Shown here: piece after piece, positions 17,640 through 40,735 of the stretch
How the letters are laid out: each line of letters starts with the position of its first letter
How positions within the stretch are numbered: position 1 is the stretch's first letter
Assembly: GCF_008086115.1 (NCBI RefSeq)
Contig: NZ_VSIY01000001.1
Location: 1-64,000 of the forward strand
Direction: 5' to 3'
DNA length: 64,000 bases
Origin: Maritimibacter fusiformis
Lineage (GTDB): Bacteria; Pseudomonadota; Alphaproteobacteria; Rhodobacterales; Rhodobacteraceae
Notes under the pieces: model-generated
What the model was told of the DNA's origin: nothing
Databases searched by the model: none
Seen by the model: only the letters and a program-made list of their open reading frames with translations
Translations under genes and position numbers: made by a program

Positions 17640-19618
17640 GCGTCGCCGCCGCACTTCGCCGGGCCGCAAAGCTGGCGCGGGCCGGCGACCGGGACGGGGC
17701 GGCGCAGGTCTACCGCGAGGTGCTGGCGCGGTTTCCGGCCAATCCGCAGGCGCGCAAGGAGCTGGCGGCGCTCGGGCAGACCGGCGCGGCGCGCCCCGCT
17801 GCGGCGCAGTCGGCCACCGCGTCCGGGACATCGCCCTCACACACCGGTCCGGCCCCCACCGAGGCCGAGTTCTCGGCCCTGACCCAGGCTTTTTCGCGCG
17901 GTGACACCGACCGGGTGATTGCGGGCGCGCAAGCGCTGATCCTGCGGTTTCCGGCGCATGCGCCCAGCCACAACCTGCTTGGCCTCGCCCAGGCCAAGGC
18001 GGGGCGCTACGAAGCGGCGCTGGCCAGCTACGACCGCGCGCTTGCCGCCGATCCGGCCATGGCGATCGCCCATCACAACAAGGCGGCGGCCTTTGCCGCG
18101 CTTGCCCGGATGGACGAGGCCGCCGCCTCCGCGCTTGAAACCGTGCGGCTCGAACCCGCCTATGCCGAGGGGCATCTGTCGGCGGCCTACGCGCTGCTGG
18201 CGCTGGGGCGGCTGGACGAGGCGCAGGCACATCTGCACGAGGCCGAGGCCAACGCCCGCCGCCAGCCCGGCGTGCGCGCCCGGGCGCAGCTCGGCATGGG
18301 CAATCTTGCCTTTCGCCGCGCCCGCCCCCATGCCGCCGCCCGGCATTACGCCCGCGCCCATGAGCTTGACCCGCACAATGTCGAGGCGCTGACCAACCTG
18401 GTCCTGGCCCAGCTTGCCGAGGGGCGCCACGAACAGGCCAGCGCCACCGCGCGCGCCGCGACCGAGCTTGAGCCGCGCAATCCGCAGGCCTGGACCAACC
18501 TCGCGCAATGCCTGCTGGAAGGCGGTGAACGCGACCAGGCCCGCGCGGCGCTTGAGCGCGCGCTCGCCATCGCGCCGAGGCACGTCGCGGCGCTGGCGCT
18601 GATGGGCCGCGTCGCCCCGCCCGCCCCCGGCACACCCGCCTTTGCCCGGCTGGCCGAAATGGTCGCGTCACCCGACCTGCAAGAGGCCGACCGCGCGCAG
18701 CTTGGCTTCGTGCTGTTCGAGGCCGAGGACCGCGACGGCGATCCGGCCCGTGCCTTCGCCCGGCTCGAGGCCGCAAACCGGATGCGGCGCAGCGCCCAGC
18801 CCTACGATATCGCCGCCGACCGGGCATTGGTCGCGGCGATGCACAGCACCTTCGCGCCCGACCGTCCCCTGCCGCGCGCACCCCGCAAACCGGCGGCCAC
18901 GCCCCGCCCGGTGTTCATTGTCGGAATGCCGCGCTCGGGCACCTCGCTGGTCGAGCAGATCCTGGCCGCCCACAGCAGCGTGCATGCCGGCGGCGAGTTG
19001 ATGGCGCTCGGGGCCGCGATGGAGGATCTGGGCTGGTCGCCGACCGAACCCGGCCCGCCCCCCGACGCGGCGATGCTCGCGCGGCTGCGCACCGACTATC
19101 TCGCAAGCCTGGCCGAGATCGGCACCGACCGCCCGGTTGTCACCGACAAGATGCCGCTCAACTTCCGTTGGCTGGGATTCGCGCTGGCCGCCATGCCCGA
19201 GGCACGCGCGCTGGTCACCTTGCGCGACCCGGTTGCCACCTGTTTTTCCAACTACCGGCTGCACTTCACCGGCGGCGGCAACAATTTCGGCAACGACCTC
19301 GGGGACCTGGCCGAGTTTCACCGCCTGCACCTCGACCTCGTCGCCCTCTGGGAACAGCGTTTCCCCGGCCGCGTCGCACGGGTTCCTTACGAGGCCCTGA
19401 CCGAGAACCAGGAGGAAGAAAGCCGCAAGCTGGTGGCCGCAGCCGGGCTGGAGTGGGAAGACGCCTGCCTGGATTTTCACAAGGTCGAGCGCGCCGTGCA
19501 CACCTCGTCGAGCGAACAGGTGCGGCGCAGGATGTATACCGGAAGCTCGCAGGCCTGGCGCAAATACGAGGCCTGGCTTGGCCCGCTGATCGAGGCGCTG
19601 GGCGAACCGGCGCGCTAA
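17636..19618 (+). CDS. TPR-repeat sulfotransferase, copy 3 of 3
   Basis: A 660-residue third paralogue. It starts with GTG at 17636, overlapping the stop of copy 2 (GTGA), and its N-terminus SVAAALRRAAKLARAGD aligns with the other two. TPR repeats run to about residue 390; the sulfotransferase domain begins about residue 422 with FIVGMPRSGTSLVEQIL. The segment LTENQEEESRKLVAAAGL is shared almost word for word with copy 1, suggesting recent duplication or gene conversion between copies 1 and 3. It is the last chromosomal gene before the mobile element, whose left end begins seven bases after the stop. Confidence 0.88.
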   Translation: MSVAAALRRAAKLARAGDRDGAAQVYREVLARFPANPQARKELAALGQTGAARPAAAQSATASGTSPSHTGPAPTEAEFSALTQAFSRGDTDRVIAGAQALILRFPAHAPSHNLLGLAQAKAGRYEAALASYDRALAADPAMAIAHHNKAAAFAALARMDEAAASALETVRLEPAYAEGHLSAAYALLALGRLDEAQAHLHEAEANARRQPGVRARAQLGMGNLAFRRARPHAAARHYARAHELDPHNVEALTNLVLAQLAEGRHEQASATARAATELEPRNPQAWTNLAQCLLEGGERDQARAALERALAIAPRHVAALALMGRVAPPAPGTPAFARLAEMVASPDLQEADRAQLGFVLFEAEDRDGDPARAFARLEAANRMRRSAQPYDIAADRALVAAMHSTFAPDRPLPRAPRKPAATPRPVFIVGMPRSGTSLVEQILAAHSSVHAGGELMALGAAMEDLGWSPTEPGPPPDAAMLARLRTDYLASLAEIGTDRPVVTDKMPLNFRWLGFALAAMPEARALVTLRDPVATCFSNYRLHFTGGGNNFGNDLGDLAEFHRLHLDLVALWEQRFPGRVARVPYEALTENQEEESRKLVAAAGLEWEDACLDFHKVERAVHTSSSEQVRRRMYTGSSQAWRKYEAWLGPLIEALGEPAR

Positions 19619-19624
19619 GGCAGG

Positions 19625-19634
19625 GAAATGGCGC
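19625..19634. other. attL core of the element
   Basis: GAAATGGCGC, identical to the copy at 39521-39530. Sequence to its left is chromosomal (six bases after the sulfotransferase stop). Sequence to its right begins the element and leads into mobC. Confidence 0.75.
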
Positions 19635-19639
19635 GCCTA

Positions 19640-19751
19640 AGCGGAGAAAGTTCGAACACTTTCTTCGCGACTCTGGAAGAGTGGGAGCGCCATCTCAGAG
19701 CCGTTGAAGCCTCTAACACCGTAACCCAGGATAACAATCCGAGGTGCGGTT
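19640..19751. other. Putative oriT region ahead of mobC
   Basis: The 117-bp leader of mobC contains, on the minus strand (19727-19733), TATCCTG followed by GGTTAC, which matches the ATCCTG nic core of MOB-P (RP4-like) origins. The inverted repeat GAAAGTTCGAACACTTTC lies at about 19646-19663. Relaxosome genes directly adjoin it. If correct, the minus strand is transferred, leading toward attP and the recombinase end, so the mob genes enter last. The nic assignment is by short motif only. Confidence 0.4.
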
Positions 19752-20177
19752 ATGAGCATTTCGGAACGTGATTTCAATGCGGTAGCAGCCGCCACCCCCA
19801 AAAAGAAGCCGCGCGAGGCTCCTTTCTCGCTCCGCCTGTCCTTCGAAGAGAAGGCTCTTTTGCGCGCCGCAGCAAACGGCGCTCCTCTTGGCGCTTACAT
19901 CAAGGCCAAGCTCTTCGACGAGCCGCTGGAGAAAGTTCGCCGCCGCAACACCAACCCTGTCAAAGATCATGAAGCCCTGGGCCGCGTTCTCGGCGCGCTT
20001 GGAAAGTCCCGCCTCTCTCAAAACCTGAACCAGATCGCGCGCGCGGCGAACATGGGTGCACTGCCAGTATCGCCGGAGCTCGAAGACGAGCTCCGCCAGG
20101 CCTGTGCGGATGTCGAAACCTTGCGCAAGGAACTGCTGCGGGCGCTTGGCAGCTTGTCGAACGGAGGCTCGTCATGA
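19752..20177 (+). CDS. mobC: MobC-family relaxosome accessory protein
   Basis: A 141-residue protein of the MobC/bacterial mobilization family. It has an N-terminal RHH-like DNA-binding strand-helix (APFSLRLSFEEKALLRAAANGAPLGAYIKAKLF), then LSQNLNQIARAANMGALP, the diagnostic MobC segment, and a C-terminal helix. It assists the relaxase at oriT by opening DNA near nic. It overlaps the relaxase start by four bases. In the excised circle the recombinase frame would end 20 bases inside this gene. Confidence 0.9.
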   Translation: MSISERDFNAVAAATPKKKPREAPFSLRLSFEEKALLRAAANGAPLGAYIKAKLFDEPLEKVRRRNTNPVKDHEALGRVLGALGKSRLSQNLNQIARAANMGALPVSPELEDELRQACADVETLRKELLRALGSLSNGGSS

Positions 20178-21538
20178 TCCTGAAAGGCAACCAACGAGGC
20201 AATGCAGCCAAGCTGGCAAAGCATCTGATGAACACCCACGACAACGAGCATGTCGAGCTTCATGAATTGCGCGGCTTCATGAACGAAGATGATCTGCATG
20301 AAGCTCTGAGAGAGGCCGAAGCCATCGGCAAGGGCACACGCTGTCAGCAGCATCTGTTCTCGCTCAGTCTGAACCCGCCGCAAGATGCCCATGTCGATAT
20401 TGCTACCTTCGAAACCGCCATCGAAATGGCGGAACTGAAGCTCGGCCTGAGTGGCCAGCCGCGCGCGGTCGTGTTCCATGAGAAGGAAGGCAGACGCCAC
20501 GCGCATGCGGTCTGGTCACGGATCGACACCGATACGATGACGGCGCGTCAGCTATCCTTCACAAAACGCAGGCTGATGGATGTCTCGCAGGAGCTTTACC
20601 TACGCCATGGTTGGGACATGCCAAAGGGCATGCTGGATCGCGCCGCCAAGAACCCGCTCACCTTCACCCGCGATGAATGGCAACAAGCCCAGCGGACAAA
20701 GCAAGACCCCAAGATCATCAAAGCGCTCTTCAAGGATTGTTGGGAGCGCTCCGACTCTGTCGATGCGCTCAAATCTGCCTTGGAAGCGCGTGGCTACTAT
20801 CTCGCGCAAGGAGATCGGCGCGGCGTCGTTGCCGTGGACTATCGCGGCGAAGCTTATGCGCTGTCGCGCTGGTCGGGTGTGAAAGCCAAGGATGTTGCCG
20901 CCCGTTTCAAAGACACTGGCGCCTTGCCGTCCGTCGAAGATCAGCGTCAGAAGATTGCTGGACTGGTCGCGGACAACCTTCGGGACCACAAGAAGCAGCT
21001 TGAAGACGGCTACAAGCGTCTGCGTCCGACGCTGGAACTGCGCCGCACGCAGATGGTCGAGCGTCATCAAATCGAGCGCAACGGACTGGCAGAACTCCAA
21101 AAAGGCCGCGAAGCCCGAGAAGCCAAAACGCGGGCAGCGCGTCTTCCGCAGAAGGGTTTCGGGAAGCTGTGGAGCCGCCTGACGGGCAAGTATTCCGAGT
21201 TGAAAGCGCAGAACGAACACGATGCCTGGCAGGCCTTGCGCCGCGATCAGGCGGAGCGCGACAAGATGATTGCCAAGCAACTGGATGAGCGACAGCGGTT
21301 GCAAGAGGCCATCCGAAAACAGCGCGAAGAACGCTTGCAGGAGCTCGTCGCCGTTCGCCAGCAGATCGCCAACTACATGCTCATGAAGCAAGGCAAGAAT
21401 CCGACCGTCATGCCCAAGGACGCAGCTCTGGCCCATGGCAGAAAGGTCGATACACAACAGAAAACCCGAGAAGTGCGCGAAAAGAAGGGGCGCGAGCGAA
21501 CCCGCACGCGGGATCGCGGCCCTGGCTTTGAGCGCTGA
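20174..21538 (+). CDS. Relaxase/mobilization nuclease (MOB-P type)
   Basis: A 454-residue conjugative relaxase. The N-terminal catalytic domain shows an early tract ending HLMNTHDNEHVELHEL, the central LFSLSLNPPQDAHVD segment and the metal-binding histidine cluster in HEKEGRRHAHAVWSRID (motif III, HxH). The catalytic tyrosine cannot be fixed from motifs alone. Residues about 270-400 are rich in charged coiled-coil sequence (LRRDQAERDKMIAKQLDERQ), and the C-terminus is very basic (RERTRTRD). It would nick oriT and pilot the strand through a borrowed type IV channel via the element's coupling protein. It is translationally coupled to mobC. Confidence 0.9.
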   Translation: MILKGNQRGNAAKLAKHLMNTHDNEHVELHELRGFMNEDDLHEALREAEAIGKGTRCQQHLFSLSLNPPQDAHVDIATFETAIEMAELKLGLSGQPRAVVFHEKEGRRHAHAVWSRIDTDTMTARQLSFTKRRLMDVSQELYLRHGWDMPKGMLDRAAKNPLTFTRDEWQQAQRTKQDPKIIKALFKDCWERSDSVDALKSALEARGYYLAQGDRRGVVAVDYRGEAYALSRWSGVKAKDVAARFKDTGALPSVEDQRQKIAGLVADNLRDHKKQLEDGYKRLRPTLELRRTQMVERHQIERNGLAELQKGREAREAKTRAARLPQKGFGKLWSRLTGKYSELKAQNEHDAWQALRRDQAERDKMIAKQLDERQRLQEAIRKQREERLQELVAVRQQIANYMLMKQGKNPTVMPKDAALAHGRKVDTQQKTREVREKKGRERTRTRDRGPGFER

Positions 21539-25078: not shown

Positions 25079-27166
25079 CTATGGAACGACTACGTGCTCG
25101 ATTTCATCGAACGCCAAAATTAACTGCTTTCGGATCTTGTAGAAATCGTGGTGCTTTAGTCTCCTCGTCGGCTTTCCTGTCTTCAAGCTTCGAGGATGCG
25201 CTACGCTGGATTCGAGACGCACGGCATGAAGGGCATCAAGGGCGGGAATAGCGGCAGGCAATAACGCCGTGAGTACGGGGTCTTTCAACGCTGACCCGTA
25301 GTTTGGATAGGTTTTCCTAGGTTTGTGTCGTTTATAGATTTCCGAGAGCAGAAGATCACACCAACTATCAAGGTGAACAAGAAACTTCTCGATATTGGCT
25401 TCTCGATCTCGCTTTAGCATGATCATCATGCGCTCTGCATGTTTGTGGCCTGTGCCAAACAATGCTTTCCAATCGAATACAGTGCGCTTTCGATCCAGCA
25501 CATAGGCGATGATTTCAGGAATTCTGCTATCAGGCGCACCGACCACGCGTATGATCTTGGCTGCACGCAGGATATGTTTTGCCGTCGTCTCTACTGTGCC
25601 GTATGGGCTAGCGAGCTTATGCGAGCCTTCGACAAGCCTGGCGGCGCAAATTCGGGCGACTTCGGAACCGTCTTCGCGCATGCGCAAATTCAAGAACGCT
25701 TCATAGCTCGGCACGCCATAGATATCGGGGCCGAGGACGTTGACAGAACGCTTCTTGATCCACCAATCCGTCTCTGCGGCAACAAGCCCGTCATATTCAG
25801 CATGGGTGAGGTTTCCTGAAGAGAGAGCACAAGCGATCAAGGACGCCTTGTATGTCGGTTGAAGTGGCAGTGCGCCGGGTTTTGGCCGCAGAAGCCGATC
25901 AGCGGCAGCCTTGCCAATGTCATGATCGTACGGTGGAGGTAGGCGCCCGAGACAAGCATCCAATACGGTTGCCAGAACGGAGTGATAAAGCTCTTGATCA
26001 TCAAGATACGTTTTGATTTCGGCAGCGAGACCAGCGGGTACTTTCGTATATCTCGAAATATACGATGCGATCTGGGGCGCATATTCGGGGTGAGAATGCA
26101 AAACCTTGATTAGCCGCGCATTCAAGCGATGGCTCGGAGTGACATTGGCAAGCAAGTATTTGAATCTGGTTGAGCTCGATGCAGAAACGCGCCCGCGCCG
26201 ACAGAGTTCAAGAATGCGGGCAGTCAGCTTCTTCTGGTTAACGAACGGCACAAGTGAGGGTTCTGGTGGACGACTTACCGATTTAATCTCATCTTCAGGA
26301 TCGTTGACCTTTCGAATGTTGATTTTTGAGGTCTGGGGAAAGAGGCCGATCTCCTTGGAAGCGATGTCGAGTTTGATCAGCTTGGCACGAAGGTCTTTTT
26401 CAGTCTTGGCAAGAATCTTGATGTCATCAACGTACCGCAAATAGATTGTACGCCGCCCGCCTTGTTCTCCCGCCTTGTCCAGATGTTGAAGGACCGCTTC
26501 GGACAACATGCCCGATGGGAGTGGCCCCTGCGGAATCCCATGCTCATGATAGATATTAGCAGGACCGTTACTCCAGGTCGAAGATGTCCATTTCCGAAGG
26601 CACAACATCAAATACTCGATGGTCTCTTCATCAATCTTCAGTTCTTTCAGAAAATGAACGAGAACGTGATGATCAATTGAGTCATAGAATGATGCCAGAT
26701 CGAAATTGGCTATGTGGTCGAAACCGCGAGAATGGCAATCTCTTAGGCGGTTCGCGAATTTCTTATAGCTTCGCTGCCATTTGATGTTAAAAAACTTGGA
26801 CGATTTCCCTGCATAGAGATGGGCAAACACGCGCTTTTCATAGCGTTGCTTTGTCTGCCTCTTAAGCTCTTCGGAGATGACATTGACAATTGCCTGATAG
26901 ACAATCTGGTCTTCTACTTTAAGCAAGGTAATCGGTCTAAGTACGCCTGATGGCTTTGGCACGAGAACTTTCGAGGCATGAGCTACCTCATATCGATCCC
27001 TTATGCCCTCCGCCCTGATCCACTTCAGATGTGTGTCTGACGCGATGGCAAATGCGTCGTAAGAATCTCGGAAGTATGCCTTATACGCCGCGTCTGGATT
27101 AGACATTGTCCAGCGATAGGCGCGCCTCAAGTTGGAAAGATCAAAAACCCTAGAAAGATTGGTCAC
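25079..27166 (-). CDS. Reverse transcriptase (UG/DRT-like) with long helical C-terminus
   Basis: A 695-codon protein starting at GTG 27166, 22 bases after the hsdR stop, so it is the last gene of the hsd operon. The RT core covers about residues 60-300: LVPKPSGVLRPIT, then motif A NFDLASFYDSID (Asp156), HGIPQGPLPSGMLSE (QG at 213-214), YLRYVDDIKI (catalytic YVDD, 245-248) and a following SKINIRK. All catalytic aspartates are present. Residues about 310-695 have no recognised domain and look mostly alpha-helical, as in defence-associated RTs of the Abi/UG class. No maturase, HNH or DGR partners are present, so it is neither a group II intron nor a diversity-generating element. No room exists for a retron-type RNA directly upstream. 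Class assignment is not possible by eye. Confidence 0.88.
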   Translation of the reverse strand: MTNLSRVFDLSNLRRAYRWTMSNPDAAYKAYFRDSYDAFAIASDTHLKWIRAEGIRDRYEVAHASKVLVPKPSGVLRPITLLKVEDQIVYQAIVNVISEELKRQTKQRYEKRVFAHLYAGKSSKFFNIKWQRSYKKFANRLRDCHSRGFDHIANFDLASFYDSIDHHVLVHFLKELKIDEETIEYLMLCLRKWTSSTWSNGPANIYHEHGIPQGPLPSGMLSEAVLQHLDKAGEQGGRRTIYLRYVDDIKILAKTEKDLRAKLIKLDIASKEIGLFPQTSKINIRKVNDPEDEIKSVSRPPEPSLVPFVNQKKLTARILELCRRGRVSASSSTRFKYLLANVTPSHRLNARLIKVLHSHPEYAPQIASYISRYTKVPAGLAAEIKTYLDDQELYHSVLATVLDACLGRLPPPYDHDIGKAAADRLLRPKPGALPLQPTYKASLIACALSSGNLTHAEYDGLVAAETDWWIKKRSVNVLGPDIYGVPSYEAFLNLRMREDGSEVARICAARLVEGSHKLASPYGTVETTAKHILRAAKIIRVVGAPDSRIPEIIAYVLDRKRTVFDWKALFGTGHKHAERMMIMLKRDREANIEKFLVHLDSWCDLLLSEIYKRHKPRKTYPNYGSALKDPVLTALLPAAIPALDALHAVRLESSVAHPRSLKTGKPTRRLKHHDFYKIRKQLILAFDEIEHVVVP

Positions 27167-30607: not shown

Positions 30608-31195
30608 CTAAATGTTCCCCTTGAATACATCGGCAGCAATTGCCTCAAGCAATTCAGCTGTCAGAAATGCTCCTTCCAAATACTGTTTTTTCAGCCTAGA
30701 CACATCATCCAGGCGCGCCGCAATCTCCTGTTGCGTACTTAGGTCTGGGTAAGGAACTTCCACATTGCTTACTAGATCAATATTGAGGTTCTTGACCGTG
30801 GAGCCACCAGCCAGGAGCTTAAATTTCTGGTAAATTGCCTCCGATCCAAGGAGATAGTAAAAGTAGTCCGTAGAGATGTCGTTTGTTCGCGGTCTCAATA
30901 GAAGCCATCCATCGTGAATACATCCGTCCGTCTCCATGATGTATGGGCGACCAAAGCTCATAGAGTTTGATAGTATAAAGTCTCCTGGCTTGACGCGTCT
31001 CGAACGCTTAACACCATCTTGGATAATTTTCTTTTTCGTTTCAGAAATATACTTTGAGCCTTCTACGCCATCTCCTATCATGACCCAATTGATGCCATCT
31101 GGATCTTCAGTAATGAATTTTGAAATGGGGCGCGGCGATCCGCCCCGTGCGATCTCGAATATTTCACCAAGTTTCTTGGAAGTATAATTTGTCAT
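30608..31195 (-). CDS. hsdS: Half-length type I specificity subunit (HsdS, one target-recognition domain)
   Basis: Only 195 residues, versus about 400-450 for normal HsdS. It holds a single target-recognition domain (SKKLGEIFEIARGGSPRPIS ... WLLLRPRTNDISTDYFYYLL) and one conserved helix region (STQQEIAARLDDVSRLKKQYLEG). Start and stop look intact: it begins by a TAATG overlap with hsdM and ends eight bases before hsdR, so it is not an obvious truncation. Known half-HsdS proteins dimerise and recognise symmetric sites; the same is inferred here. Base composition is clearly AT-richer than hsdM. Confidence 0.9.
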   Translation of the reverse strand: MTNYTSKKLGEIFEIARGGSPRPISKFITEDPDGINWVMIGDGVEGSKYISETKKKIIQDGVKRSRRVKPGDFILSNSMSFGRPYIMETDGCIHDGWLLLRPRTNDISTDYFYYLLGSEAIYQKFKLLAGGSTVKNLNIDLVSNVEVPYPDLSTQQEIAARLDDVSRLKKQYLEGAFLTAELLEAIAADVFKGNI

Positions 31196-32733: not shown

Positions 32734-32914
32734 GCTCGTCCCTGCTTTCGTTTTTCGTGTTGTCTTCAGAAGGAACGGGGTGGCTCTCGACATAGGCGCG
32801 CATGAACTCTCGGATCATTTGTGCGGCTGGTTTGTCGTCGGCCTGGCATGCTAAGAGGAATTCATCGCGTAAATCGCGACTTACTCGGACCCGCATGCCA
32901 ACGTCCTTCTTCAT
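32702..32914 (-). CDS. RHH (CopG/Arc-type) regulator heading the hsd operon
   Basis: A 70-residue protein whose N-terminal half is a ribbon-helix-helix domain (GMRVRVSRDLRDEFLLACQADD then AAQMIREFMRAYVES), followed by a charged tail. The ATG at 32914 is preferred over a TTG six codons upstream because the latter lies inside the operator. The perfect inverted repeat at 32923-32941 is nine bases upstream, placing the gene under its own control. Its end overlaps hsdM. By analogy with controller proteins of restriction systems it may set the level or timing of the operon; that is inference. Confidence 0.75.
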   Translation of the reverse strand: MKKDVGMRVRVSRDLRDEFLLACQADDKPAAQMIREFMRAYVESHPVPSEDNTKNESRDEHADRRNSKQG

Positions 32915-32922
32915 GACGGTAA

Positions 32923-32941
32923 GTGTAACCAATGGTTACAC
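32923..32941. promoter_or_regulatory. Perfect inverted repeat operator ahead of the RHH-hsd operon
   Basis: GTGTAACC-AAT-GGTTACAC, 8-bp arms with a 3-bp centre, nine bases upstream of the RHH start codon. Placement and symmetry fit autorepression by the RHH dimer pair. Confidence 0.7.
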
Positions 32942-32978
32942 ATTTTGGAAGTCTAGAATGACTTCGATATCATGCGAG

Positions 32979-33459
32979 CTGGGTTCAGGGCGCGGCGACA
33001 GGCCCTATGATCGGGTTCAGCGCCGATGCGCTGGCGGCATCCAATCCGCGTAGGGTTGGTCAGGGTTCCAATGGGGCTCGAAGGCTCCGTGGTCGATGGG
33101 AAGGTTCCAAGGCAAGGGCAGCTATGAAATGCTTCCTTCCTGGTCTCGATGAAGCTCGTCTCCATGAAGTGGTCATGGGGGTATCGGTGGGAGCAGGAAC
33201 GCTCCCCTGATTGGTGATCGAACGGCCAGCCGTTTGTGCATGGTTCGGTGCAGGTGGAGAGGCACGTCTCCAAGCCCTGCGAGTGGTTCCAAGGGGCGCG
33301 ATAGCCCCATGGTCCTCCTGAAGGGATCGATGGGTGCAGGGAGAGCGAAGTCTCCTGCGACTGATTGAACGGGGATACGTTCTTGGCTCGGGAATGGGTT
33401 CAATGCCCTGAAAGAGCCACAGGCCGGGGGGATGCAACGGGGGCGCGCAGCGGGCCCCC
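32979..33459. repeat. Array of degenerate hairpin units upstream of the hsd operon
   Basis: About 480 bp of non-coding DNA built from successive short stem-loops, each preceded by a GGTTCCAA/GGGTTCA/GGTGCAG-like tag and often followed by TGGTC(T)CGATG. Clear stems with six-base loops: GGGAGC-AGGAAC-GCTCCC (33189-33206), GGAGA-GGCACG-TCTCC (33256-33271), GGGGC-GCGATA-GCCCC (33293-33308), GCAGGGAGA-GCGAAG-TCTCCTGC (33336-33358), GAACG-GGGATA-CGTTC (33367-33382), then GGGGGC...GCCCCC (33439-33459). Stems differ in sequence but keep geometry, so structure rather than sequence seems conserved. No open reading frame explains it. Confidence 0.7.
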
Positions 33460-33469
33460 TTGCCAAGCA

Positions 33470-33544
33470 GCGTGGTACTACCACGCACAGCTTGCGTTCG
33501 CTCTTATCTCAGCCGTCACACCAACGGGGGCAGTGGTACTACCA
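33470..33544. promoter_or_regulatory. Repeated palindrome GTGGTACTACCA
   Basis: GTGGTACTACCA occurs at 33472-33483 (within the larger GCGTGGTACTACCACGC dyad) and again at 33533-33544, 61 bases apart. It lies between the hairpin array and the triple-RHH gene, and is a candidate operator pair for one of the RHH proteins. Confidence 0.5.
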
Positions 33545-33721: not shown

Positions 33722-34771
33722 ATGGCGAACTATGGTCAGCGACGGTTTGGGTTGGAACTCAAGCAATTCATCCTCAACATCGAGGATACTTGGTGGGAGC
33801 CATCACCAGACAGAGACTTCGCTTGGAATGCTTTCCAGATCGGTAAGTGGATCACCCAGCACGAAGAGGAAAACAGTCGTTCCGGGGGCGGACACCAGAA
33901 GGAATCGCAACGCTACAGTATTCTGGCGAAGGAAGCTTTCAGAGTGCTCGGCACGCTATGGGTCGATCATCAGGTCTTGCCTGAGCCTGAATGGTTGTAC
34001 GAGCTACTTGCCGATGCCCCTGGCAGTAACTTCGAGGCCAGCAGCGTCGCATTATTTCTCCGCGAGGAATGTCGTCAATTTCTCATCCGCAGACGGGATG
34101 GACAGAACCCCGATATACCGACTCTGGCCGATGGCGAGAGAAAACAAAGGCGTTATCGACGCCGACAAGACTTACCCGATCCAGAAAAACCAGCGTGGGC
34201 AACAGTGAACAGGAATCCACCCAAGAAAGTCCAAATACCGTGTCGGGTTACGCCTGAGATTAGAGCCTTGATTGGCAACGCAGCGGATGACGAGGGCATT
34301 AGTCAAGCGCGGTGGCTCGAAGAGGCAATCGCCGAAAAGCTCAAATCCCAAGGCTATAACGTTTCGCTTGCAGAGCGAAAAGAAGTAGTAACGGAACAGC
34401 CAGCCAAGAAACCAAAGCGCACCCAAAGACGTGCCATACCACTGCCTGACGCAAGCCCTGGCATTGCGGCGAACCGCGCAGATAAGGCCACAACCTTTCG
34501 CATGGGTGAAAGCTTGGCAGCACAGATCGACAAAGCGCGCGGTGAAGAGCTTGACCGCTCGGCATGGATGAACCGTGCGATCCAAAGCTTTATGAAGGAC
34601 AAGGGCAAGCTTCCGAAGCCTGACAACGTGCGTGATACCATGTCTGAACCCGTCTCCCTGCGCTTTGACAAAGATTTTTTTCCAAAAGTTGAAGCTGCTG
34701 CGTCCGCATCAGGACTGACAAATTCTGAGTGGTTTCGCCGTGTGGCGCGCTGGTATCTCGAACAAAATTAA
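33722..34771 (+). CDS. Protein with three tandem RHH-like domains
   Basis: 349 residues of unknown family. The N-terminal 150 residues are unrecognised (FILNIEDTWWEPSPDRDFAW). Then come three similar strand-helix-helix units: about 171-205 (VQIPCRVTPEIRALIGNAAD ... ARWLEEAIAEKL), about 258-295 (ATTFRMGESLAAQIDKARGE ... SAWMNRAIQSFM), and about 310-348 (VSLRFDKDFFPKVEAAASAS ... NSEWFRRVARWYL). Linkers are basic and proline-rich. RHH domains normally work as dimers, so three in one chain is unusual. It sits between repeated GATATCAC motifs, suggesting autoregulation, and ahead of the coupling-protein genes, so it may regulate transfer or act as a relaxosome accessory protein. Function unproven. 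Confidence 0.7.
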   Translation: MANYGQRRFGLELKQFILNIEDTWWEPSPDRDFAWNAFQIGKWITQHEEENSRSGGGHQKESQRYSILAKEAFRVLGTLWVDHQVLPEPEWLYELLADAPGSNFEASSVALFLREECRQFLIRRRDGQNPDIPTLADGERKQRRYRRRQDLPDPEKPAWATVNRNPPKKVQIPCRVTPEIRALIGNAADDEGISQARWLEEAIAEKLKSQGYNVSLAERKEVVTEQPAKKPKRTQRRAIPLPDASPGIAANRADKATTFRMGESLAAQIDKARGEELDRSAWMNRAIQSFMKDKGKLPKPDNVRDTMSEPVSLRFDKDFFPKVEAAASASGLTNSEWFRRVARWYLEQN

Positions 34772-35723: not shown

Positions 35724-37367
35724 ATGAACCCTCATGAAAGTCCCTACGGCTCGGCGCGTTTCGCCGATGATCTTGAGGTCCTGCGCGCCTTTCGTGATCG
35801 GGGCGGTGTTCCGTTCGGCTTCTATAACAGGCGCAAGCTCTTCCACGCAAAACAGGCGGGCATGCTGCTGATCGGCGGCGCTGGCTCGGGCAAGTTCACA
35901 ACCGTGCTTGCACATGTGATGGATGCACCTGGCCGGAAGACGGAGCCGCCGCGCTACGCGTTCTTCGACCCGAAGCGCGAACTCCGCACCGTGCTTGAGC
36001 CCTATTTTGCGCACATCAAGGCGGCGGTCTTCGAAATCAATACCCATGGCACGCTCGGTTTTTACGGCAATCGAGTCTCGCTGTTCCCGCATTTGACGCC
36101 CGATAGCCTTCGCTTGGTCGGCGATAGCCGCCGCGCGGCGCGCACCTTTATTGCCGAAAGCGGCGGAGGCGATGCGCGGTTCTTCGAGCAAAAAGCTCAG
36201 AACTGGCTTGATCCGTTGATCCGCGGCCTCGTGCATCTGGATGGCGGCGTCTCGCCTTCTTCGCTGTACGAGCTCGTCGGCATGATCCGCTCCGCACCCG
36301 AAGCTTGGGCAGAAATCTCCACCCTTATGGCCGATCTGGGCGAGCCGGACCTGCGCGTCACTTTCGCTGAGATGCATACCATGGCTGAGGACGCCAGCCG
36401 TACCTACGAGTCCATCATGGCGGAGATCGCGAACGCGGTTGCCTTCATGAACGATCCGAGGCTTCAGGATACGTTCGTCAGCACTGCGCAGGCCGACTTC
36501 TCGCTCGAAGTGCTGTGTGAAGCCTCGGATCGGCCTGTTTTCGTGTTCTTCACCACGCCGCCGGAGATGACGCAGCAGAATGCGGCGCTGATCCGCCAGT
36601 TCTTTTCGACACTGCGCACGCTCAAACAGGCCAAGCCAAACGCCCCCACGCTGAACCTTGTCATCGATGAGGCCGCCCAACTAGGCGCGTTCCCTGAAAT
36701 TGCAGAATTCTACTCCATCGGGCGCGGCTTCGGACTTTGCCCTGTCTGCGTCTATCAAGACTTTGGCCAGATCAGGAAAAATCTCGGCCCCACAGGAGCC
36801 ATGACACTCTCGGCCAGCGCTGATCTCGAAATGTACCTGGGCGGGGGAATTTCAGACCTCGAAACGGCGCGGATGCTGAGCGCGAAACTTGGCAACCAAA
36901 CGCTGGAGCTGGAAGACCATCTCGTCCAGGAACGGGCGCAGCGCTCTCGCCGCGAGGCTTTATACGAAGCATTCTTCGGCAAAGGTAATCCCATGCGCAC
37001 GGGCGCAGCCCTGCGCGCGCTGGACTATGAGCAGCAGCACAAGCGCAAGATTTCCCGCCCGCTGCGCACGCCGGAAGAAATTTTGGGTATGCCCCAAAGC
37101 CAAGCGCTTGTCTCGGCGTCGGGCTACGGCATCCCGCCATTCTTCGCGGAGAAGACACCGTACTACCAGAACGCAACCTATACCGGACTCTACGGCCCCA
37201 ATCCTTACTTTGACCGGGACCTCAGCACCGTGAACGTGCCTGGCCGCATAGGCCGCAGGAAAACGCTGCGCGTCATCCGCGAGGCCGTACCCGCAAGCCA
37301 CGCCCACCTTCCTCAATACCAAAGCGGTGAATGGCATTTCATCGAAGGTCATCGCCCCAAGCCCTGA
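35724..37367 (+). CDS. VirD4/TraG-family type IV coupling protein, lacking the membrane domain
   Basis: 547 residues. The P-loop is GGAGSGKFT (51-59), followed by PRYAFFDPKRELRTVLEPY and FEINTHGTLGFYGNRVSLF. The Walker B region is TLNLVIDEAAQLGAFPEI, with the conserved VCVYQDFGQIRKNLG after it. It recruits the relaxase-DNA complex to a type IV secretion channel. No N-terminal transmembrane helices are present: the frame starts with a soluble GSARFADDLEVL stretch of the kind that normally follows them. The two small membrane proteins upstream may substitute. A lysine precedes phenylalanine in the P-loop (GKF rather than GKS/T), an unusual feature worth noting. Confidence 0.9.
   Translation: MNPHESPYGSARFADDLEVLRAFRDRGGVPFGFYNRRKLFHAKQAGMLLIGGAGSGKFTTVLAHVMDAPGRKTEPPRYAFFDPKRELRTVLEPYFAHIKAAVFEINTHGTLGFYGNRVSLFPHLTPDSLRLVGDSRRAARTFIAESGGGDARFFEQKAQNWLDPLIRGLVHLDGGVSPSSLYELVGMIRSAPEAWAEISTLMADLGEPDLRVTFAEMHTMAEDASRTYESIMAEIANAVAFMNDPRLQDTFVSTAQADFSLEVLCEASDRPVFVFFTTPPEMTQQNAALIRQFFSTLRTLKQAKPNAPTLNLVIDEAAQLGAFPEIAEFYSIGRGFGLCPVCVYQDFGQIRKNLGPTGAMTLSASADLEMYLGGGISDLETARMLSAKLGNQTLELEDHLVQERAQRSRREALYEAFFGKGNPMRTGAALRALDYEQQHKRKISRPLRTPEEILGMPQSQALVSASGYGIPPFFAEKTPYYQNATYTGLYGPNPYFDRDLSTVNVPGRIGRRKTLRVIREAVPASHAHLPQYQSGEWHFIEGHRPKP

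Positions 37368-37987: not shown

Positions 37988-40735
<2,748 letters not shown>

Follow-up and report, generated by a model that had tools for sequence, protein, structure and literature searches.

The hairpin array and the adjoining conserved sequence in the window, the 64,000-nucleotide stretch of Maritimibacter fusiformis DNA analysed here, are best explained as the origin-of-transfer (oriT) region of an integrative mobilizable element that spans about 19.6-39.5 kb and lies at a tRNA-Arg gene, a reading to which we assign a probability of about 0.77. Within this region, 33420-33496 probably constitutes the oriT core, on the right, and 32979-33412 its structured flank, a modular extension beside the nic region. 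Conservation, covariation, an oriT-like position and linkage to a relaxase support this reading computationally. The features concerned are as follows.

32979-33412, + strand: modular hairpin array, with nine 6-nt-loop hairpins plus others and conserved linkers; shuffled homologous modules occur in other genomes.
33385-33418, + strand: helix 1, between array and core, an outer stem GGCTC/GAGCC enclosing an inner GGGTTCAATGCCC hairpin.
33420-33496, + strand: predicted oriT core, comprising GGCCGGGGGGATGCAAC, the hairpin GCAA-C-GGGGGC..GCCCCC-TTGC and a terminal palindrome; found upstream of mobC-relaxase elsewhere.
33464-33495, no strand assigned: the terminal palindrome, with a constant GTA-C-TAC centre and covarying arms.
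33533-33544, no strand assigned: second GTGGTACTACCA copy, ahead of the triple-RHH gene (direct repeat D10).

The initial annotation, made from the sequence alone, had described a non-coding, structurally conserved array of hairpins, several with six-base loops, at 32979-33459. Nine non-overlapping hairpins with loops of exactly 6 nt (stems of at least 5 pairs) were counted in 32979-33412, against a mean of 1.63 and a maximum of 8 in dinucleotide shuffles of the same stretch, none of 500 of which reached nine. The description thus holds in character and location, although the annotated end falls short, as the feature continues to about 33496. Across 23 loci, 82 loops of 6 nt were found versus 15.6 in same-length pieces from the flanks of those loci, with a smaller enrichment for other loop lengths; the commonest 6-nt loops, GCGATA, GCGAAG and AGGAAC, are also the top three over 148 loci. 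The 5' part of the array differs between genomes, being modular, with modules reordered and duplicated from locus to locus, and often truncated, whereas the 3' end is constant. The start often falls within tens of bases of the stop codon of the preceding gene.

Several familiar identities were considered for the array and rejected. Rfam covariance models gave no match up to E 5, which speaks against a known RNA family. A CRISPR or guide array, already discounted in the initial annotation for want of identical repeats, is contradicted both by the absence of identical repeats in our own analysis and by stems that are common to several genera and change by compensation, and a CsrA-type sponge by loops that do not share GGA. 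A pairing between loops and linkers (AGGAAC with GGTTCC), spotted by eye, is broken by the linkers of two loci (L021 and L040).

Structural evidence also comes from the constant 3' end, hereafter the 3' module, for which a covariance model (R1) was built. In an alignment of 88 such modules, 97.1% of cells pair, a value that falls to 37-56% when partners are slid against each other. Both sides of a pair have changed in 228 cells; shuffles give 57.7 such cells, and slid partners 19-43. The shuffle counts are not probabilities because the sequences are related, but the slid controls retain that relatedness; some lean towards the structure is to be expected, as the model to which the alignment was fitted was itself derived from 18 sequences of this kind. 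Stem covariation had been surmised in the initial annotation, and these numbers bear it out. In helix 1, all 5 of 5 outer pairs covary and 94.1% of cells are paired (88 sequences). Helix 4 (98.4% paired) adjoins a nearly invariant GGGAT, forming a conserved inverted repeat beside a conserved unpaired region, and helix 5, the terminal palindrome, is 99.2% paired, with both sides changed in 5 of 7 pairs. Downstream of the core, L030, L026, L027 and L036 likewise have a copy of GTAGTAC, and the second GTGGTACTACCA copy of the window is a possible operator or accessory-protein site.

The core can occur without the array. At array-less loci it is kept alone, with a sharp left edge at the step from GCCGG(A/G)GG to GATGCAAC; conversely, in L033 (G074:C2) the array is retained to GGCCTG, just before that edge position, and unrelated sequence then replaces the core. 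Together these suggest that the array-core junction is a breakpoint, perhaps nic, the array side of the argument coming from one case. Since the array is absent beside cores of L258, L262 and the plasmid Do28_2 that look functional, it must be dispensable there and is not universally present.

The element also carries the genes expected of a mobilizable element:

19752-20177, + strand: MobC-like relaxosome accessory protein (PF05713 MobC, E 8.5e-4, and PF21983 NikA-like, both below cut-off), placed upstream of the relaxase like annotated mobC.
20174-21538, + strand: relaxase, MobA/VirD2-like (PF03432, E 6.9e-12).
33722-34771, + strand: ribbon-helix-helix protein with a NikA-like domain (PF21983, E 6.6e-6, 0.4 bit below cut-off).
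35724-37367, + strand: VirD4/TraG-like coupling protein (PF02534, E 1.5e-25).
37988-39520, + strand (open frame continues to 40735): large serine recombinase at the tRNA-Arg end (PF00239, PF13408).

With the tRNA-Arg at its right end (39525-39601), the element thus combines a relaxase of its own, a serine recombinase and a host locus, by which an integrative mobilizable element is recognised; a tRNA-type attachment repeat was not found at its left end. The coupling protein is the only type IV secretion system (T4SS) gene recognised in 19.6-39.5 kb, short of a systematic T4SS search. Tyrosine is missing from roughly the first 140 residues of the relaxase, whose nucleophile may be another residue, and a search of solved structures by sequence returned no relative.

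Relaxase and 3' module are closely associated across genomes. Among 395 genomes, counting the window relaxase as present at E below 1e-85, 40 carry both relaxase and R1 and 328 carry neither, while the relaxase occurs without R1 in 15 and R1 without the relaxase in 12 (odds ratio 73, p=1.3e-31). Of the 14 genomes that have a close coupling-protein homolog, 13 also carry the 3' module (p=1e-11). These p-values are only nominal because the genomes are related. The 15 and 12 discordant cases count against the oriT reading, although draft genomes and thresholds may lie behind part of them. Where array and relaxase lie near each other on the same contig, 48 of 55 pairs are on one strand, with the array nearly always 4-29 kb downstream. 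In neighbourhoods reaching about 9 kb around 64 loci, a coupling-protein cluster was found in 32 (29 on the right side, 29 on the same strand) and a large serine recombinase in 26 (25 and 25, respectively), while the MobC-like cluster, the relaxase and ArdC each occur in 8, nearly all on the left. Divergence of the core correlates with that of the relaxase (r 0.60, 21 elements with the coupling protein) more than with that of the coupling protein (r 0.34) or the recombinase (0.10, on 15); over all 35 elements the Mantel correlation between core and relaxase is weak (r 0.18, p 0.04), and some correlation of this kind is expected anyway from the shared history of whole elements.

A point against the oriT reading is that in the window the relaxase gene lies 12 kb from the core, unlike in most known systems. 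Elsewhere, on plasmids and at five chromosomal loci, homologous cores occupy the position expected of an oriT, immediately ahead of the mobC-relaxase genes. The chromosomal loci are among the seven opposite-strand array-relaxase cases: in 5 of 7 an R1 match lies 0.5-1.7 kb upstream of the relaxase gene and a mobC-like reading frame separates the two, and in three of the five (L259-L261) window-type hairpins stand between core and mobC. In pcai42B, an annotated mobilizable plasmid (MOBP), the order is core, hairpins, small ORF, mobC, relaxase; the core lies likewise upstream of mobC-relaxase in pTF4.1 and pSREG01, adjoins mobC in Do28_2, and has related layouts in S. meliloti pSymB and B. barranii pCC829_1. 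Loops of 6 nt are less strongly in excess in such arrays than in the window, the observed numbers being reached by 2 of 500 shuffles for pcai42B, 7/500 for pSREG01, 8/500 for L261 and 79/500 for pCC829_1. In 15 integrative elements and the window, a core upstream of mobC was not found. The initial annotation had listed a secondary origin of transfer among the possible roles; an origin of transfer is what we favour, whereas "secondary" is doubtful, since the lack of any other such oriT-like site upstream of mobC and the single strong R1 match in the window make this site more likely the primary oriT. Many elements have at their left end, immediately before mobC, a short conserved ORF-like stretch (window 19618-19752, L263-L275; e.g. 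MVDPTGGESNRLFEVLQEWEHHLA in L264). A separate arrangement is seen in L130 (G629:C6), where two inverted oriT-like cores flank a 444-aa gene beside a serine recombinase (372983-374717); a 443-codon stretch of this gene had no Pfam match.

The closest parallels are the MOBP plasmids pTF4.1 (A. ferrooxidans) and pcai42B (Frigidibacter), with PF03432 relaxases, that of pcai42B being a tblastn relative of the window's. By our comparison, which also placed their putative oriT sites, both have a core like the window's (palindrome, GC-rich hairpin, and GTTGCATCCC or GTGGACCCC on one strand), and both have hairpins between core and mobC, much as the window array stands beside its core. The window differs in that the relaxase operon is 12 kb off and in the other orientation, with cargo between. 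Our literature search, for which subscription papers were mostly beyond reach, found nothing specific on this oriT, its array or pTF4.1, nor any experimental mapping of the plasmid sites.

We infer nicking at the core, and a role of the array in transfer, along the following lines. The element's MobA/VirD2-like relaxase, encoded 12 kb away, would recognise the core, on which relaxase and accessory RHH proteins would gather before nicking; a T4SS supplied by another element would then receive this relaxosome from the coupling protein. The array would fold on the + strand, either when single-stranded (at the end of the transferred strand) or when transcribed, and the folded array might help recruit or protect the transfer complex. 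A bolder and doubtful extension is that it acts in the relaxosome as a modular mobilization RNA or folded single-strand scaffold that docks the transfer complex to foreign T4SSs, the choice of usable helper system being tuned by the shuffling of modules.

Both strands were folded, as the initial annotation had proposed, and the + strand of the window array folds better relative to its own shuffles (z -2.39, versus -1.55 for the - strand). In the unique array hairpins, collected with G-T and A-C treated alike, + strand cells hold 133 G-T versus 27 A-C, compared with 55 versus 46 in shuffled sequence; counted as positions in 12 module families the ratio is 15 to 10, with two of the A-C positions coming from misregistered families. 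An excess of G-T over A-C makes the + strand the likelier folded strand, with moderate support. This mutation signal fits RNA and single-stranded DNA alike.

The nic itself is predicted near 33425-33433, and the evidence as to its strand points in two directions. The MOBP nic consensus is ATCCTG, as in RP4, R64 and VirD2, and relaxase sites are expected to show a hairpin followed by the nic sequence. ATCCTG is absent from the window core, which counts against the oriT reading; the nearest candidate is GTTGCATCCC on the - strand, which resembles it without matching and which follows a hairpin, in the order of relaxase sites. The MOBP-like ATCC and this order would favour nic on the - strand, whereas the G-T bias, together with the usual lagging position of relaxase genes in transfer (PMC11541004), favours the + strand.

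Compatible with the oriT reading, and possible though well short of even odds, is that the array encodes a + sense non-coding RNA that acts in trans or as a scaffold for mobilization, with the core as its neighbour. The + strand preference in fold and G-T pairs and the conserved loops agree with this, and there is a precedent in SGI1, which depends on an RNA that it encodes itself and whose functional portion is located between oriT and a relaxase-like gene (PMC9299015). SGI1 and the window element may be likened by description, both being integrative mobilizable elements in which a conserved non-coding segment adjoins oriT towards the relaxase (PMC9299015). The SGI1 relaxase, however, is tyrosine-recombinase-like rather than MobA/VirD2-like, and its sgm-sRNA is a single transcript whose promoter has been mapped, the description of which mentions no modular hairpin array like that of the window. 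A sigma-70 consensus scan ahead of the arrays gave no enrichment of a conserved + promoter (5 of 113 loci versus 4.7 in shuffles), the one promoter-like site of the window (32945-32973) being within chance; no terminator-like site was found, arrays often begin within tens of bases of a stop codon, and the mutation signal does not single out RNA. With neither a conserved promoter nor a terminator in evidence, the array may work as DNA that folds at the end of the transferred strand, or as an RNA produced by transcription from adjacent genes.

It is rather unlikely that the hairpins work, in the manner of Frpo, ssi or sso, as single-stranded DNA promoters or priming sites on the incoming strand, even though the array sits at the oriT edge, is rich in hairpins and keeps a fixed orientation relative to the relaxase, and Frpo promoters occur in leading regions (PMC11541004). 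Frpo/ssi sequences and the window array share hairpins beside oriT and possible action in single-stranded DNA (PMC11541004), but Frpo mimics a double-stranded promoter with -35 and -10 elements, whereas the array consists of many short 6-nt-loop hairpins in which no -35/-10 pattern stands out; moreover, adjacent cargo genes run in either direction, and, should the - strand be the one transferred, the G-T bias would favour the wrong strand. Less probable still is a recombination hot spot, in which modules serve as homology blocks for the exchange of defence cargo between elements: cargo does vary on both sides and modules are shuffled and truncated, yet homologous exchange requires neither covarying stems nor fixed loops, and plasmids hold similar arrays between core and mobC with no cargo there.

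DNA similarity revealed array homologs in 18 of 147 genomes, a count that includes the window's genome, and also on plasmids from Tritonibacter, Devosia, Bradyrhizobium and Rhizobium; homologous arrays with shuffled modules are present in many Alphaproteobacteria. Within the window's family, 52 of 395 sampled genomes have an R1 match, and class-wide 22 of 385 do. An exact pattern taken from the core, some of whose matches (e.g. L168, L175) look like chance, was found in at least 116 GTDB contig stretches, most of them alphaproteobacterial and a few labelled otherwise, and in one IMG/VR contig; a virus origin of array and core was accordingly rejected. The mobile element to which array and core belong carries defence systems and occurs in marine and soil bacteria. 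The 3' module can be searched for as the signature of a probable transfer origin. With mostly 4-29 kb between module and relaxase in these elements, such an origin would escape a search confined to the sequence just ahead of relaxase genes. The signature also marks the spread of immunity genes, since the elements carry defence systems. If the array is a working RNA or single-stranded DNA scaffold, it would add another nucleic-acid factor in mobilization beside the SGI1 sgm-sRNA.

Another of the initial annotation's suggestions, a structured RNA used by the neighbouring reverse transcriptase (RT) or type I restriction system, draws on their adjacency within the window and is very improbable, because the cargo beside the array varies: other genes flank most homologous arrays, an hsdM cluster like the window's was found in 5 of 64 loci, and no RT is among the 24 most shared neighbour clusters. 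The triple-RHH neighbour is common to only one other locus, L030. As for the cargo itself, 25079-27166 encodes a UG19 (DRT) group RT (PADLOC RT_UG19, E 2e-173) directly downstream of hsdR, in an apparent single operon with hsdM and hsdS that is not linked to the array. The HsdS protein (30608-31195) has only 195 aa and one Methylase_S stretch, a half-size specificity subunit. Ahead of hsdM lies a small RHH-like ORF (32762-32941; weak Pfam matches) with the near-palindrome TGTAACCAATGGTTACA upstream, which together form a possible autoregulated control of the hsd operon.
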